Assembly (NCBI RefSeq): GCF_000212375.1
Contig: NC_015501.1
Span: 186,001-250,000 of the forward strand
DNA length: 64,000 bases
Direction: 5' to 3'
DNA from: Porphyromonas asaccharolytica DSM 20707
GTDB lineage: Bacteria; Bacteroidota; Bacteroidia; Bacteroidales; Porphyromonadaceae
The notes under the pieces are model-generated. The model was not told where the DNA came from. It was given only the letters and a program-made list of their open reading frames with translations, and did no database searches. This document shows positions 10,549-62,408 of the stretch, in pieces (positions within the stretch are counted from its first letter, which is position 1; each line of letters starts with the position of its first letter). The translations under genes were made by a program, and so were the position numbers.

Positions 10549-10688
10549 TCACGTAGCTATTTCCGAATCGCCTACCGAGGAAATGAAAAATCCCTACGTG
10601 GACGAGAAATGAAACTTCGGAGGAATCGTTTCGCCCCCACGTGAAGAATAAAAAATAGCCACGTGTGGATTCTCTATTTCCTCCGTGG
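10549..10688 (-). repeat. Phased CCACGTGG array A (degenerate, 3+1+3)
   Basis: Units start at 10549 (TCACGTAG), about 10571 (CCTACCGAGG, decayed), 10594 (CTACGTGG), one core unit at 10607-10627 (minus orientation), then 10637 (CCACGTGA), 10659 (CCACGTGT) and 10681 (CTCCGTGG). The 22-bp pitch survives although most palindromes are mutated, and one of the usual two core units is absent. It lies between the nqr promoter and the susD terminator. Apparent ORFs across it are by-products of the repeat. Confidence 0.8.
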
Positions 10689-15887: not shown

Positions 15888-16125
15888 AATTCTTATTTTG
15901 AGGTGCTGGGAAAACTTTAGGATGACGTATTCTAATCCTCTGAGACTATAAAACAGAATATCCACGTGGAGATTTTCGATTTTCCACGTGGATATTTTTC
16001 ATTCTCCACGTAGGGACGAAACGATTCCTCCGAAGTTTCATTTGATTCCTCCGAAGTTTCATTTCATATCCACGTGGAGATTTTTTATTCTCCACGTGGA
16101 GATTTGAGAATTTCCACGTGGGGAT
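15888..16125 (+). repeat. Phased CCACGTGG array B with conserved leader (3+2+3)
   Basis: A leader of about 73 bp (AATTCTTATTTTGAGGTGCT onward) nearly identical to the one at 47404 is followed by palindromes starting at 15962, 15984 and 16006, two tandem 21-bp core units (16023-16043, 16044-16064, containing TTCCTCCGAAGTTTC), and palindromes at 16070, 16092 and 16114. Pitch is exactly 22 bp within each group, and 64 bp separates the third and fourth palindromes. The left terminal repeat is eroded and the right one is absent; the right side abuts a heptad tract. Confidence 0.9.
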
Positions 16126-16336: not shown

Positions 16337-19213
16337 CTACTTGACTAGTCTCTGTGTCTTCACACCGTCAGCTGTACGGATCATAGCGACATACTGACCA
16401 GCTGGCAGAGAGGCTACATCCATCGACATCAGCTGAGCTCCCGCAAAGGCTGCTACCTGGACGCCCTCCATGCTGTATAGCTCGACAGCCTCTACGTCAG
16501 TAGCATCTGTGAGCTGTAGCTGTGTGGTGAAGTGTGCCGGATAGAGGTTCACCTCTGAAGCAGCTACACGGATGGGCTCGTTAGGACGTAGCTCACCTGG
16601 ATAGTCATAGACGACCTCTACGTAGTAGTTATCAGAGGTCTTACCCTCAGCATCATCGTACACGAATGTGTCTGAAGGTAGCTCAGCGACCTTCTGTCCG
16701 TTGCGGTATACGACATAGCTCTTGATCTCGGGGAAAGGTACAGGCAGCTCACCACGTGTGTAGTAGTCGTTGGTTACGCCTGGCTGCTTCTTAGGATTGT
16801 CAGAGATGACCAGCTCTAGGGCTTGGTACGCCATACGATTCTTGCTATAAGGCTCTGGCCAGAGAGTAAACTTGCGAATGTTGTAGTCGTCCTTGAGGTC
16901 TAGAGCTAGCTTGCAGCCGTCATAGTTTACGTTTTCATCTGTAGAGTTGGCATCTATATAGATGTCTCCCGTAATGTTGGATCCATCGAAGGCAAAGCCG
17001 ACATCTAGCAGGTGAGCATCGCTAATCTCGACAGGTCTCGAGAGTTGGTAGGAGATGAACTCCTTCTTATCAGCGGTACCCTGAGGCACGATGAGACCAT
17101 AGTACTGTATAGGACGAGCATCGACTTTCTGTCGGATGAAGAAAGAGATGTTTTTCTCAGTATCGATAGAGCCGTTGGGCTTGTATGGGGTGTCCTGAGA
17201 GGGGATGAAGTTAATCTGGTGTATATAGAGCTTTCGACCGTTGAGTGGAGACTGACCTAGACGATAGCTGTCATACATGTAGATCCTATAGATGTCCTTC
17301 TTAGAGATGTTGTAGTATCTCAGGATATCATTCACGCCATTGGAGGCTTTGAGAGGAGCTATCTTGTCACGGTTCTTGATCTTGGATACGATCTGTGTAT
17401 TGTACGGCATCTGCCACTTTACCTTGGCACCCGTTTTGCCCTCAGAGACAGTCATCGGAGCTCTAGAGGCAAGCTGTCCGGTGTAAAGGGTGTAGTAAGC
17501 AGCAGGAGTCGTCACCTCCTGGCCATCAATCGTGTAGACAGCCTCGACGGAGTAAGAGACACGTCCCTTGCGCTTCATATCACCAGAGATTAGATCCTCA
17601 CGCGTCGTCTCTGCTTGGCTAGCTATGCGACGTCCATTACGATATAGATTATACTTAACCTCGTAGCCCTGTGGGTGCTGCGGTACTGGCTTCCAAGAGA
17701 TCTTGATCTTTGAAGCGTCTGTAGGCTCAACTTTTGCGATGATCGAAGGTACGACGGCTAGGGGCTGATAGTTCTGTTTCCAGGTACCCTTAACCTTTGT
17801 GGTGCCAGTGCTCTTGGGGTCGAGCCACTTAGCCATGTACCACGTCTCACCCTTAGACTTATACTTATCAAAGTGCGAGTTCAGACGTCCATAGACTCCA
17901 TCCATAGCGCAGGGAGTCACAGCTCCACCTGTTAGTGTACCGATCTGATTACCCTCAGCATTGAATAGAGGCGAGCCTGACGATCCGCCCTCGGTATTAC
18001 CCTTGGTGAATCGGAATCCAAAGTGATCATCAGCGCCACCACCGAGAGACCACGTGGTGATAGAGACACCACCGTCGAAGAGGGAGATCTTAGCAGCGTC
18101 ACCTGATGGGTGGTGTATGCTAGCCCCTCTAGGCCAAACCGTAGGAGCAGCATCCCAGCCTGAGTAGTAGACACGATAATCTAGAGGTATCTCTTTTTTG
18201 AGTTCGAGGAGGAGTCCGTCCGAATAGCCCTTCATCGGCAAGAACGACTTCATCTCGGCACCTACCATACTCACCTCTTGCATTGTAGCATAGTCACCAC
18301 TAGAGCAGCGAGGCTTCTCATAGTGGAAGGAGAAGATCCACTGGTTCAATTGTAGTGGTGAGACCTCAAACTTATCGGTTATGCTGGCACAGTGCGCTGC
18401 CGACATGACGTATGGCTTGAAGTCGCCAGCTACATTGTTCACAAGGTTACCTGAGCAAAAGCCGATACCTCTTCCACCGACCATCAGCATAGCCACGGAA
18501 CTGGCCTTCTGATCTTGGTAAGGGTCTCCCTCTGGGCAGTTTGCATTGATCTGACAATATTTAGCAAAGCCAGGGTCTGAAGTATCCTCGCTATTCATAT
18601 GGTGCTTGACACCAGGATCAGCCATCAGCACTGGGCGATAGAAGTATCCTACGCCCTGCACCTTGATCGAAGGCATCTCACCTGTGATGGGAGCCTCATA
18701 GTCGAGGATGAGTGTATTGCCTCTGATAGGCTCTGTAGCGAAGGCTCCATGCTCGGGGTGCGTAGCGTGGGTGTAGGCTCCTAGTACCTGCTTACCCTCA
18801 GGTGAGTAGATATAGAGCTTACCCCCCTCAGGGATGTAGAAGTCTTCGTAGTAGAGGTTAGTCCCTACAGGTGTGCCCTCGAGCTCTATCTCTAGGCGAT
18901 AGATGTTTCGTCCCTCGACGGTGCCTACCAGCTGAGCAGCCTCAGCAAAGTCGGCTTGATGCTCTATGACGCGCCCCACGGAGAGAGGCTTCGTCTGTAC
19001 AGTCTCCGTCCAAGACTCTTGAGATAGGTAGTCCGCTGGATTAAAGTCCAGACTCACGGTGCGAACGGCAGTAAGTGAGCGTAGCGAACCCTCCTGCATC
19101 ATGAGGGGTCTACCTCCGAAAGATTGTTGTCCGAAGGTCACGAGACCACCACACAGCAGGACGAAGGCTGCTGCGAGGAGTCGACTGACTTGGGATAAGC
19201 GTTGAACTGTCAT
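16337..19213 (-). CDS. Secreted trypsin-like (S1) protease with T9SS sorting domain
   Basis: Large exported serine protease, 958 aa, resembling lysyl-endopeptidase-like proteins of Bacteroidetes. Signal peptide in residues 1-29, then a propeptide-like region of about 200 aa. The catalytic domain shows His in MSAAHC (about residue 271), a probable Asp in YSDGLLLELK (about 333) and Ser in GGSSGSPLF (about 410). A fibronectin-like region follows (about 485-590), then a domain with jelly-roll-like strands. The last 75 residues (from about 882, ending LPAGQYVAMIRTADGVKTQRLVK in short strands) form a type A T9SS C-terminal domain, so export to the cell surface or medium is expected. It is monocistronic and divergent from rsmH. 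Specificity is not readable with confidence. Confidence 0.9.
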   Translation of the reverse strand: MTVQRLSQVSRLLAAAFVLLCGGLVTFGQQSFGGRPLMMQEGSLRSLTAVRTVSLDFNPADYLSQESWTETVQTKPLSVGRVIEHQADFAEAAQLVGTVEGRNIYRLEIELEGTPVGTNLYYEDFYIPEGGKLYIYSPEGKQVLGAYTHATHPEHGAFATEPIRGNTLILDYEAPITGEMPSIKVQGVGYFYRPVLMADPGVKHHMNSEDTSDPGFAKYCQINANCPEGDPYQDQKASSVAMLMVGGRGIGFCSGNLVNNVAGDFKPYVMSAAHCASITDKFEVSPLQLNQWIFSFHYEKPRCSSGDYATMQEVSMVGAEMKSFLPMKGYSDGLLLELKKEIPLDYRVYYSGWDAAPTVWPRGASIHHPSGDAAKISLFDGGVSITTWSLGGGADDHFGFRFTKGNTEGGSSGSPLFNAEGNQIGTLTGGAVTPCAMDGVYGRLNSHFDKYKSKGETWYMAKWLDPKSTGTTKVKGTWKQNYQPLAVVPSIIAKVEPTDASKIKISWKPVPQHPQGYEVKYNLYRNGRRIASQAETTREDLISGDMKRKGRVSYSVEAVYTIDGQEVTTPAAYYTLYTGQLASRAPMTVSEGKTGAKVKWQMPYNTQIVSKIKNRDKIAPLKASNGVNDILRYYNISKKDIYRIYMYDSYRLGQSPLNGRKLYIHQINFIPSQDTPYKPNGSIDTEKNISFFIRQKVDARPIQYYGLIVPQGTADKKEFISYQLSRPVEISDAHLLDVGFAFDGSNITGDIYIDANSTDENVNYDGCKLALDLKDDYNIRKFTLWPEPYSKNRMAYQALELVISDNPKKQPGVTNDYYTRGELPVPFPEIKSYVVYRNGQKVAELPSDTFVYDDAEGKTSDNYYVEVVYDYPGELRPNEPIRVAASEVNLYPAHFTTQLQLTDATDVEAVELYSMEGVQVAAFAGAQLMSMDVASLPAGQYVAMIRTADGVKTQRLVK

Positions 19214-19409
19214 ATTTTGGTTTGTATAGTATGGGTTAAAACGATTCGGGTCGCAAGTTACAACAAAAATCTGACTTAGCGAAAGAACCTCTCCTCTATG
19301 GGAGCAAGAGCGTAGTGGCTAACTAACTACTATCAAACATCTTACTACTCCACATCACACATTTAAGCCGAGAGAAGAGCCTAGTGACACGAGTAAATCT
19401 GCTCCTCCC

Positions 19410-19437
19410 CTCTAATCTCTAACCTCTAATCTCTAAT
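19410..19437 (+). repeat. Heptad tandem repeat, 4 units, before the rsmH promoter
   Basis: CTCTAAT, CTCTAAC, CTCTAAT, CTCTAAT in perfect 7-bp register, ending 5 bp before the promoter box TACCTTTG. The remainder of the 19214-19460 divergent gap shows no gene. Confidence 0.85.
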
Positions 19438-34179: not shown

Positions 34180-34361
34180 CCACGTGGAAAAGCCCAAATC
34201 TCCACGTGGCTATTTTTCATTTTCCACGTGGAGACGTTTTGATTCCTCCGAAGTTTCATTTGATTCCTCCGAAGTTTTATTTCTCGCCCACGTGGAGAAT
34301 TTTCTTTTTCCACGTGGGGATTTGAGATTTTCCACGTGGGGATTTGAAAATATCCACGTGG
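34180..34361 (+). repeat. Phased CCACGTGG array C (3+2+4)
   Basis: Palindromes start at 34180, 34202 and 34224; core units are at 34241-34261 and 34262-34282; palindromes follow at 34288, 34310, 34332 and 34354. Pitch is 22 bp throughout, with the same 64-bp step across the two cores as in the other arrays. All seven octamers are intact CCACGTGG. It has no leader or terminal repeats. It lies between the divergent greA and ssrA genes, about 70 bp before the ssrA promoter. Confidence 0.93.
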
Positions 34362-34558: not shown

Positions 34559-34959
34559 GGGGCTGATTGGCTTTGACAGCGTGTTGTAGTGATCCGTAAG
34601 CATGTGGTGCCTGCTGTGACGCACCTTAAAACCTTACTGCGAACCTTTCTAAATGGCGAAAACAACTTTGCTCTCGCTGCGTAGTCGAAGTATAGTACAC
34701 TAACGCTTCATCCCAGGCATAGATGCCGAGACGAGACATCACCCAGGGGGCCGTTGCTCCGAGGCGCTCTGATACGGTGGTGCATGGATATCGGGGATCG
34801 GATGGTGTAGCCTCATACATCGTCTTAAACTTTAGAGGATAAGGCTTTAGCTCGGTCGCTGTGCTCGTGAGTTGAGGCCCGACAATCAAAGTACAGCTAA
34901 ACATGTAGAAAGCGCTTTACCACCATGTTTGGACCGGGGTTCAATTCCCCGCAGCTCCA
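34559..34959 (+). ncRNA. ssrA: Transfer-messenger RNA (tmRNA)
   Basis: Rescues stalled ribosomes by adding a degradation tag. The 5' end GGGGCTGATTGGCTTTGACA and the 3' end with T-arm CGGGGTTCAATTCCCCG plus CAGCTCC form the tRNA-like domain: GGGGCUG pairs with CAGCUCC (one G-U). The tag frame is GGC GAA AAC AAC TTT GCT CTC GCT GCG TAG at 34655-34684, i.e. GENNFALAA followed by a stop. The gene is a one-piece tmRNA of about 401 nt plus CCA; the genome reads A-CAA after the acceptor stem, so CCA must be added enzymatically. smpB is not in the window. Confidence 0.93.
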
Positions 34960-34975
34960 CAACCCCACTGACAGT

Positions 34976-47399: not shown

Positions 47400-47680
47400 C
47401 GGCTAATTCCTATTTTGAGGTGCTGGGAAAACTTTAGGATGACGTATTCTAATCAACTGAGACCATAAAACAGAATATCCACGTGGAGATTTTCGATTTT
47501 CCACGTGGATATTTTTGATTCTCCACGTAGGTACGAAACGATTCCTCCGAAGTTTCATTTGATTCCTCCGAAGTTTCATTTCATATCCACGTGGAGATTT
47601 TTTATTCTTCACGTGGAGATTTGAGAATTCCCACGTGGGGATCCACCTTCTCTCCAGCACCTCAAAATAAAAATTAGCCG
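47400..47680 (+). mobile_element. MITE-like element E carrying a phased CCACGTGG array (3+2+3)
   Basis: Bounded by 27-bp terminal inverted repeats (47400-47426 and 47654-47680; 25 of 27 bases pair; outer end CGGCTAATT, inner end GAGGTGCTGG). Inside are a leader of about 50 bp, palindromes at 47479, 47501, 47523 (CCACGTAG), two core units at 47540-47560 and 47561-47581, and palindromes at 47587, 47609 (TCACGTGG) and 47631. Flanks CCTAATCT and TCTAATCT could be an imperfect 8-bp target duplication, but both lie in heptad repeats. No transposase is encoded, so it would need one in trans. Open frames across it arise from the repeat. Confidence 0.8.
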
Positions 47681-47729
47681 TCTAATCTCTAACTTCTAAC
47701 CTCTAAAGTCTAATCTCTAACCTCTAAAT
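47681..47729 (+). repeat. Heptad tandem repeat, 7 units, before the cob operon promoter
   Basis: TCTAATC, TCTAACT, TCTAACC, TCTAAAG, TCTAATC, TCTAACC, TCTAAAT in unbroken 7-bp register, ending 4 bp before the -7 box. Confidence 0.85.
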
Positions 47730-54700: not shown

Positions 54701-54735
54701 CCTAATCTCTAACTTCTAATCTCTAACCTCTAATT
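54701..54735 (+). repeat. Heptad tandem repeat, 5 units, before the nrnA promoter
   Basis: CCTAATC, TCTAACT, TCTAATC, TCTAACC, TCTAATT, ending 3 bp before the TATCTTTG box. Confidence 0.85.
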
Positions 54736-54738
54736 TCG

Positions 54739-54746
54739 TATCTTTG
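54739..54746 (+). promoter_or_regulatory. -7 box of nrnA
   Basis: TATCTTTG followed by GCGG, 25 bp before the ATG at 54772. Confidence 0.65.
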
Positions 54747-54771: not shown

Positions 54772-55860
54772 ATGTCGCAGCTTAGCAATAGACCTTTATC
54801 AGACACGCTGGAGCTTACCTCGCTAGGAAGTGAGGGCGAGCGTCGTGTCGTCATCGTAGGACACAAGTCGCCCGACGGGGACTGCATAGGCAGTGCCTTG
54901 GCTCTACGTAGCTACCTGCTGGCACGAGGTGCTGACGAGGTCTCTATCATGGTCGTGGGACGTGTGCCAGACAACCTTCTCTGGCTTCCTGGCGCTGAAA
55001 CGATACATCAGCTCTCACCTCAGAGTGACTTAGAGCCGATACGTCAAATACTGGCTCAGGCTAGGCTACTTCTCTTGGTTGACTTCAACCATCTAGGGCG
55101 TATCGGCAACCCGCTTGAGGGCTTAGTTGCTGAGATCGTGGGTAAGCCTGAGGTGCGCTCCGTGATGATAGACCACCACCCAGAGCCTGAGATGGGACTA
55201 GTCGATGAGATATATAGCGACACCTCGGCGTGTGCTACGGGCTTTCTCATAGCTGAGCTGCTCGGTGGTAGCGAGTCGAGAGAGCTAGAGCTGTATGGCG
55301 GTGCCGACATGGCGACCTGCTTGCTGGCAGCTACCTATACCGACACAGGACTCCTGCGACATGGTGCGATTACCCCGAAGCTCTTTAGGACGATCGCTCA
55401 TCTCCTAGAGGTCGGTGCAAGACATGAGGAGATCGTGCTACGGATCTTCAAGAGCGACAAGCTAAACCGCCAGCGTCTCCTCGGCTATATCATCAATGAG
55501 CGTACGACCTACGACCTCGATCTAGGTGTGGCGGTCTTTACGCTTAGGCAGGAGGACTTCGACCGCTTTGGCATAGAGCCTGGAGATACAGAGGGCTTGG
55601 TAAATGTTCCCCTTGATGTGGCGGGTATACGAGCCGTCGCATTCCTCCGAGAGCAACGTGATCCAGACGAACCAGTCAAGATCTCGTTTCGCTCGCAGGG
55701 CAACTTGCCGGTCAATGAGGTGGCGAGCAAACTCTTTGACGGGGGCGGGCATCTGAATGCTGCGGGTGCTGAGTATCAGGGCACGCTGACGGACGCGCTA
55801 GCACTCGTCTGGCAGGGACTGCGCCAGCTCGTACAGGATTACCCGGGGGGTAGAGATTAG
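54772..55860 (+). CDS. nrnA: DHH/DHHA1 phosphoesterase (oligoribonuclease NrnA-like)
   Basis: Cytosolic Mn-dependent phosphoesterase, 362 aa, of the NrnA group that degrades nano-RNA and 3'-phosphoadenosine 5'-phosphate. DHH domain: VGHKSPDGDCIGSALAL (about residues 25-41), VDFNHLGRIG and the DHH box as MIDHHPEP (about 131-138). DHHA1 domain: KISFRSQGNLPVNEVA and GGGHLNAAGAE (about 324-334). The stop codon lies in the first unit of the following heptad tract, so the last residues (PGGRD) abut the repeat. The symbol is by family; substrate preference is unknown. Confidence 0.88.
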   Translation: MSQLSNRPLSDTLELTSLGSEGERRVVIVGHKSPDGDCIGSALALRSYLLARGADEVSIMVVGRVPDNLLWLPGAETIHQLSPQSDLEPIRQILAQARLLLLVDFNHLGRIGNPLEGLVAEIVGKPEVRSVMIDHHPEPEMGLVDEIYSDTSACATGFLIAELLGGSESRELELYGGADMATCLLAATYTDTGLLRHGAITPKLFRTIAHLLEVGARHEEIVLRIFKSDKLNRQRLLGYIINERTTYDLDLGVAVFTLRQEDFDRFGIEPGDTEGLVNVPLDVAGIRAVAFLREQRDPDEPVKISFRSQGNLPVNEVASKLFDGGGHLNAAGAEYQGTLTDALALVWQGLRQLVQDYPGGRD

Positions 55861-55903
55861 AGGTTAGAAGTTAGAGATTAGACAATAGAGATTAGACAAT
55901 AAA
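55855..55903 (-). repeat. Heptad tandem repeat, 7 units, between nrnA and the DUF4827 gene
   Basis: Plus-strand units GATTAGA, GGTTAGA, AGTTAGA, GATTAGA, CAATAGA, GATTAGA, CAATAAA: the same family in inverse orientation. It fills the whole spacer from the nrnA stop to 4 bp before the next ATG. Confidence 0.85.
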
Positions 55904-62248: not shown

Positions 62249-62408
62249 CCACGTGGAAATTCTCAAATCTCCACGTGGAGAAAAAAAATTCTCCACGTGG
62301 GCGACAAATGAAACTTCGGAGGAATCAAATGAAACTTCGGAGGAATCAAAACGTCTCCACGTGGAAAATAAAAAATAGCCACGTGGAGATTTGCAATTTT
62401 CCACGGGG
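62249..62408 (-). repeat. Phased CCACGTGG array F (3+2+3), inverted
   Basis: Palindromes start at 62249, 62271 and 62293, two core units at 62306-62326 and 62327-62347 (plus strand reads GAAACTTCGGAGGAATC), then palindromes at 62357, 62379 and 62401 (CCACGGGG). Pitch is 22 bp and the step across the cores is 64 bp. It has no leader or terminal repeats. The rest of the 62067-62493 gap has no clear gene or promoter box. Confidence 0.92.

Follow-up and report, generated by a model that had tools for sequence, protein, structure and literature searches.

Dimers of Noc, SlmA, MatP or ParB bind many palindromic chromosomal sites and so organise or guard the chromosome, and these sites are single or loosely clustered. 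In plasmids, iterons such as R6K's 22-bp repeats place tandem sites roughly two helical turns from one another, and the boundaries of bacterial chromosome domains are mostly regarded as stochastic or set by transcription. The BIME/REP elements of enterobacteria and pseudomonads are regular palindromic arrays that are intergenic, species-specific and present in more than 100 copies, with a suggested role in chromosome organisation (PMC2817692). BrickBuilt of Porphyromonas gingivalis is an intergenic tandem repeat whose 23-nt unit is part conserved and part variable; it occurs in 19 copies of 1 to 22.8 units, many of them with MITE flanks (PMC4596501). Our literature searches returned no description of the arrays reported here from Porphyromonas asaccharolytica DSM 20707 (genome G000), which may be an undescribed DNA-docking element that helps organise the chromosome.

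Arrays in the window and across the genome

The window, the whole 64-kb stretch that was analysed (G000:C1:186001-250000), contains 22 exact copies of the palindrome CCACGTGG (0.77 expected; maximum of 5 across 100 shuffles), of which 21 belong to four arrays (Table 1) and one, at 18050, stands alone. One-mismatch forms fill four other lattice places (CCACGTAG at 16006 and 47523, TCACGTGG at 47609, CCACGGGG at 62401) and, together with the 21 exact copies, place all 25 units at 22-bp steps. In all four arrays a 64-bp step spans two 21-bp cores, and the cores are lattice units too, with centre-to-centre steps, computed from the coordinates, of about 22, 22, 21.5, 21, 21.5, 22 and 22. The initial annotation, which started from array 3, had described this pitch, the paired cores and the 3+2+3 layout (3+2+4 at 34 kb), all of which were borne out, with 21 of the 25 units exact. 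Absent from it were a fifth, decayed array with one exact core on the minus strand and three one-mismatch palindromes, the MITE around array 3, and the even placement of arrays along the chromosome. A tmRNA gene (Rfam RF00023) lies at 34559-34962, about 200 bp past the 34-kb array, and heptamer repeats of the CTAATCT/CTAACCT kind, with periods of 7, 14 or 21 bp, occur in the window at 19409-19436, 47681-47728, 54702-54743 and 55851-55901 and also adjoin arrays in G000 and G025.

Table 1. Arrays and associated elements, in window coordinates unless stated otherwise
Feature	Position	Strand	Details
Array 3 (starting observation)	47479..47638	+	palindromes 47479, 47501, 47523, 47587, 47609, 47631; cores 47542, 47563
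Array 1, 3+2+3	15962..16121	+	cores 16025, 16046; MITE end found at left only (15896-15909)
Array 2, 3+2+4	34180..34361	+	cores 34243, 34264; without type-1 or type-2 flanks
Array 4, 3+2+3, reversed	62249..62408	-	cores 62310, 62331 (minus strand); without type-1 or type-2 flanks
Fifth array, decayed	about 10594..10666	-	core 10611; palindrome remnants 10594, 10637, 10659
MITE-like element around array 3	47412..47668	.	257 bp; ends ATTTTGAGGTGCTGG, as in the 1,636-bp ISL3-type insertion sequence
IS3-like element at arrays	G000 ~961 kb, 1,677 kb, 1,810 kb (L205-L207); G025 L117, L208, L209; G023 L161		

The lattice was found across the entire 2.19-Mb genome, with at least 104 arrays listed. The genome-wide search for CCACGTGG-N14-CCACGTGG that the annotation had proposed returned 424 pairs with up to two mismatches (0 matches for a control pattern), and core pairs with up to three mismatches numbered 106, 100 of them listed. 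Within 649,187 bases of G000, picked as stretches around arrays, there were 383 exact palindromes; 268 of the 275 distances of up to 130 bp between successive ones equalled 22 (173), 44 (17), 64 (28), 86 (34) or 108 bp (16), a count that presupposes no lattice. Random spacing and confinement to the window, both of which the annotation had named as evidence against itself, were thus replaced by a fixed set of distances and by arrays throughout the chromosome.

Under fixed-lattice scoring, 99 core matches had at least three palindromes (up to two mismatches) and 87 had at least five of six, one of the latter being matched on both strands, which leaves 86 distinct scored arrays. Their palindromes were exact in 326 of 516 cases; changes were most frequent in the third and fourth, in the half that faces the core (36/86 and 35/86), and the array is therefore roughly mirror-symmetric. 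The symmetrised site is A.T.TCCACGTGGA.A.T. Joint changes of palindrome positions 2 and 7 were seen at 20 of 504 sites against 11.0 expected, always to complementary bases, a covariation that would fit a dimer site and a stem alike. By their flanks, 18 scored arrays are of type 1, 15 of type 2 and 53 of neither (unique). Information in these 53 was 1.5-1.9 bits in palindromes and cores, 1.0-1.4 bits per column in spacers and 0.1 bits in outer flanks; the annotation's statement that spacers vary in sequence and not in length thus holds for length, which is constant, and needs qualifying for sequence, which varies though not freely. A long-hairpin model was tried for G000 and rejected: outer spacers are partly inverse copies, but their likeness was 0.620 within and 0.633 between arrays.

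Relatives with other palindromes

We compared G000 with 25 further genomes of its genus (G001-G025) and with one genome of another genus in the same family (G300). The CCACGTGG pair pattern with up to one mismatch occurred in 5 of the 26 genomes of the genus, and the core was present in the same five, G000 and its relatives G021, G023, G024 and G025; in an order-wide sample of 393 genomes the pattern occurred in two, G000 and G023. Though G023 has 100 core pairs, it has only 5 exact CCACGTGG pairs: most of those of its arrays that we read carry CTACCTAGG/CCTAGGTAG on the G000 plan, reversed between halves, with a pitch of mostly 23 bp (39 neighbour distances) and, by eye, 8 to 10 units, and a few retain CCACGTGG. 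There are 11 core pairs in G024, where units are mostly decayed. The relatives' CCACGTGG arrays vary in the balance of palindromes and cores (for example 3+2+3, 3+3+2 or 2+4+2) and mostly total 8 units by eye. Both neighbouring genes matched those of a G000 array at 5 of 33 arrays in G025, 1 of 29 in G023, 0 of 12 in G024 and 0 of 7 in G021, and at one G024 array smaller genes match G000 on both sides. Duplicate loci were removed by hand from these counts, from those of gene context and from those of cross-species sites. Conservation of array sites between distant species gave one P of 0.04 (G010/G000, uncorrected) among nine pairings, the others ranging from 0.24 to 1. A scan of a genome-contig collection, which may omit near relatives, returned a single stretch, which is a GC-rich tandem repeat of a Tabrizicola MAG.

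In stretches of genomes that have no CCACGTGG arrays, we searched every lag from 14 to 40 for places whose self-identity over 44 bp reached 62%. G010 had 25 lag-22 places in the 280 kb scanned, G300 had 13 in 160 kb and G016 had 12 in 100 kb (where 3 further places had lag 21), against means of 0.58, 0.25 and 0.17 at lags 14-40 excluding 21-23. G005 had 7 in 140 kb and a further 5 at lag 23, which were taken as BrickBuilt; G011 had 3 in 80 kb, G017 had 1 in 80 kb and no 22-bp peak, and the 39 kb of G002 plus G003 had 1 (0 in the 19 kb of G003). Lags outside 21-23 averaged 0.0 to 0.6 in the scanned Porphyromonas genomes and G300, and first-order surrogates gave 0 to 0.33 places at lag 22; the counts exclude G141 (552 bp) and two 3.3-kb loci (L211, one lag-22 place; L215, none). 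Thirteen other Bacteroidales had 2 lag-22 places in 279 kb, which is no higher than at their remaining lags (0.83 on average, at most 3), and 50 kb of E. coli had 0. Six-letter words recurred at lag 22 in the intergenic DNA of G000, G016, G011 and G005 and not in that of G017, and for such words lag 22 was not among the top lags of coding DNA.

Of the units found in this way, those of G010 and G300 have a palindromic consensus, matched at 6.6 and 6.8 of 8 pairs respectively against 5.0 in shuffled columns, with a smaller excess in G016, G005 and G011 (5.7-5.9 against 5.0-5.2). All 14 G016 arrays examined for unit number have four units, with steps of 22,22,22 in 13 and 22,22,23 in one; the mean score was 13.8-15.9 of 18 at the four unit places and 7.5 and 8.7 at the adjoining lattice places (random 6.7). 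Five units occur in 10 of the 11 G010 arrays of GACCAGTACTGGTC, with steps of 22,23,22,22 or the mirror. Between these ten arrays palindromes are 80-90% alike and spacers 29-43% (chance 25%), so that in this family, as among the G000 arrays, we did not see the identical spacers by which the annotation would have put the regular pitch down to recent copying. The nearest 13 flanking bases are 42-50% alike and farther flanks 26-29% (chance 25%), and since spacers and nearest flanks are somewhat alike (29-50%), older copying is possible. Unit number is variable in other families, from 4 to 13 in G010 chains and from 4 to 8 in G300 at a loose threshold.

Placement along the chromosome

Arrays are spread more evenly than expected by chance. 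For the at least 104 arrays listed in G000, the CV of gaps was 0.68 against 0.99 expected, and 3 gaps were shorter than 5 kb against 21.8 expected (18-20 under intergenic nulls); the 97 arrays of G025, two pairs less than 1 kb apart having been merged beforehand, gave a CV of 0.61 and 0 gaps below 5 kb against 16.8 expected. Because incomplete lists in both genomes could hide short gaps, we then read three big apparent gaps of G000, which yielded eight additional CCACGTGG-type arrays, seven of them picked up by a lattice scan and the eighth by eye. The gaps also contained five arrays built on a different palindrome, TTCC-N6-GGAA, one of which, at 2.131 Mb, mixes it with CCACGTGG-like units in a single lattice, and a further array of neither type. 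The window, together with these three gaps including their edges, makes four G000 regions (~316 kb) that were read almost completely and in which 22 gaps had a mean of 13.3 kb and a CV of 0.43 (P 0.0004, intergenic null). One gap there was below 5 kb against 6.7 expected, and this one, of 0.6 kb, is probably a single split type-1 element; an array at 2.152 Mb was missed by the region scan, and its inclusion would divide the widest gap of that region. The mean interval between arrays was 6 to 14 kb in regions read throughout.

With families pooled, placement was also even in G010 (28 arrays, one of whose places was classed as coding, excluding three weaker chains at 104, 185 and 281 kb; P 0.0014) and in G016 (16 arrays, P 0.0011). 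Evenness was weaker in G300 (P 0.02 for 7 arrays and 0.03 for 6), along whose contigs C1 and C2 there is partial alternation of two palindrome families, often at intervals of 10 to 12 kb. Taken singly, the main G016 family was weakly even (P 0.048) and one G010 family showed no significant evenness (P 0.27). The evenness of pooled families suggests that arrays of different sequence substitute for each other, and arrays with different palindromes avoid one another along the chromosome in the G000, G010 and G016 samples. Among the flank types of G000, none of the 18 type-1 arrays lies within 5 kb of an array of other flank (5.7 expected), and for type-2 arrays, of which 2 of 15 come that close to others against 4.8 expected (P 0.09), avoidance was not clear. 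Deletion between direct repeats was not supported as the cause of the spacing, close pairs being equally rare in opposite orientation, and the intergenic nulls rejected intergenic location by itself as the cause of the evenness.

Flanks, gene context and candidate proteins

The type-1 flanks belong to nine elements of 257/258 bp, one of which (980.7 kb) lies outside the scored set, and to six copies of 1,636 bp, with the common end ATTTTGAGGTGCTGGG (up to two mismatches); the open frame of the one 1,636-bp copy checked matches DDE_Tnp_ISL3 (E 1.5e-34). By its sequence, type 1 is a MITE whose terminal inverted repeats are common with a full ISL3-type insertion sequence, and these inverted ends imply that some arrays probably spread as MITE passengers. 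Such repeats were found at type-1 copies only, and the 53 unique-flank arrays gave no sign of having travelled in this way; a scan for target-site duplications at these 53 gave no clear signal. A 1,636-bp copy with type-1 MITE ends (G000 250000-251635) begins on the last base of the window, 64000. Most of the G025 arrays read, and some in G021, G023 and G024, have type-2 flanks, which measure ~50-65 bp on the left and 85 bp on the right. In G025 they end in TACATATC.../...GATATGTA with an inner inverted repeat GTCGGCTC...GAGCCGGC, which suggests a second mobile element family. An IS3-like insertion sequence with an rve transposase repeatedly adjoins or splits arrays in G000 and G025, and in G023 just its end sequence was found beside an array.

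Arrays lie outside long open frames in 96 of 98 cases in G000 and overlap one in the other 2. With genes taken as long open frames rather than from a trained annotation, the 96 classed arrays lie between co-directional genes in 52 cases, divergent genes in 31 and convergent genes in 13. As the sole baseline is the 17 window gaps of at least 100 bp (14 co-directional, 2 divergent, 1 convergent), this distribution is no proven preference for a gene orientation.

We looked for candidate proteins by domain. PF02195 (ParB) had one match in 24 of the 26 genomes, four in G025 and none in G019 (85% complete), and no dedicated Noc-like ParB paralogue common to the array genomes was found. PF01797 (Y1; RAYT or IS200-type) scored above cut-off twice in G000 and once each in G023 and G016, and not in G021, G024 and G025, so that a cognate RAYT (REP transposase) is unsupported, three of the five CCACGTGG-array genomes having no Y1 match.

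Possible roles

We suggest that the arrays are docking platforms for dimeric DNA-binding proteins and perhaps organise the chromosome, a reading to which we give a probability of a little under one half (about 0.48). Each array would offer several palindromic sites two helical turns apart, on which putative sequence-specific protein dimers would line up next to each other along the same DNA face. That the 22-bp lag stays constant in genomes whose palindromes are unrelated favours the same-face, multisite part of this proposal, which the initial annotation had already made; the protein is putative. Since arrays with different palindromes avoid one another, they probably do the same job, which may be the anchoring or bounding of chromosome domains, and a palindrome that varies between genomes at constant pitch would be expected if the sites track a protein of drifting specificity. 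Against a platform stand the pitch of mostly 23 bp in G023 and the variable unit number of other families. The strong RNA folds described below, the partial likeness of spacers and nearest flanks in the G010 family, the poor evenness of single families, the unclear avoidance by type-2 arrays, the near-absence of lag-22 places in G017 and G003 and the small number of array positions common to G000 and its relatives also count against it. What the sequences themselves show, in the samples read, is that the lattice is rigid, that palindromes turn over, that the number of units is constant in some families, and that arrays are evenly placed and exclude one another across families.

The rigid geometry would be unnecessary if the arrays were transcribed as a string of hairpins, an alternative that the annotation had also raised and that in REP/BIME-like form, in RNA or single-stranded DNA, would end transcription or protect transcript ends. 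The units are palindromic, the G000 arrays lie almost all outside long open frames, and 12 of 13 array-covering folds (one of them partial) were far better than shuffles, with z from -3.7 to -9.4; the count leaves out a fold at L258:15380-15500 (z -1.7) that was offset from its intended array. However, the G016 array fold barely beat its shuffles (z -1.3), mirrored-spacer complementarity in G010 was not significantly higher within than between arrays (P 0.11; 0.06 with G-U pairs), and Rfam matched no array in 17 sources, finding tRNA and tmRNA only. RNA needs no exact two-turn pitch, and the 31 of 96 arrays between divergent genes argue against a role as terminators only. We consider the hairpin part of the annotation unlikely.

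We think only slightly better of a selfish family of MITEs or minisatellites resembling BrickBuilt, devoid of host function, in which transposition immunity or selection against neighbouring copies would produce the evenness. The family flanks of 33 of the 86 scored arrays speak for it, as do the type-1 ends common with the 1,636-bp copies, the slight similarity of spacers and of adjoining flanks within one G010 family, and BrickBuilt itself, a 23-nt minisatellite within a MITE (PMC4596501). Yet 53 of the 86 keep an intact lattice with neither a common flank nor a clear target-duplication signal in the scan, and the exclusion spans different flanks and palindromes, which is not expected from the immunity of one transposase. 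A role as promoter-proximal operators for an ordinary global regulator agrees with the 83 of 96 found between co-directional or divergent genes, which against the baseline of the 17 window gaps is no proven preference. Evenness and mutual exclusion are unexpected for a regulon, sites between convergent genes occur, and the genes flanking the window arrays are functionally mixed; we regard this role as quite improbable.

Returning to docking platforms, a broader version, which we hold as tentative and somewhat doubtful, is that Porphyromonadaceae chromosomes would be divided about every 10 kb by a new class of element with inherited geometry and free sequence. Such elements would have a few palindromes, often in constant number, at a two-turn pitch; arrays with different palindromes would be interchangeable and mutually exclusive, and each palindrome would track a fast-evolving, dimeric, domain-setting protein. 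Even placement, rigid geometry and free sequence would then let boundary formation be tested directly in a small genome, and the arrays would offer a natural series of co-evolving site/protein pairs.

Comparison with known systems

Like REP/BIME elements, the G000 arrays consist of high-copy intergenic palindromic units in regular, species-specific arrays; unlike them, the arrays keep a two-turn pitch across unrelated sequences, are evenly placed along the chromosome and, in three of five CCACGTGG-array genomes, occur in a genome that gave no Y1/RAYT match. BrickBuilt has in common with the arrays the genus, the intergenic location, tandem units with a conserved and a variable part, and MITE flanks in many copies. 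It differs in its unit, taken as the 23-nt AGACCATAGTATCCTCTCATGTG of G005, in having 19 copies with 1 to 22.8 units, and in its ends, GAGACCTTTGCA (IS5-like), where type-1 ends are ATTTTGAGGTGCTGG and common with an ISL3-type element and the unique-flank G000 arrays have no common ends. R6K-type iterons are direct repeats at one replication-origin locus, whereas here there are more than 100 chromosomal arrays. In contrast to the sites of Noc, SlmA, MatP and ParB, the arrays are multi-unit with a two-turn pitch, and no ParB paralogue is common to the genomes that carry them. The arrays may work somewhat like BIMEs or Noc-type site systems, but the searches supported neither a cognate RAYT nor a ParB paralogue, and some features of the arrays are, to our knowledge, found in neither system.
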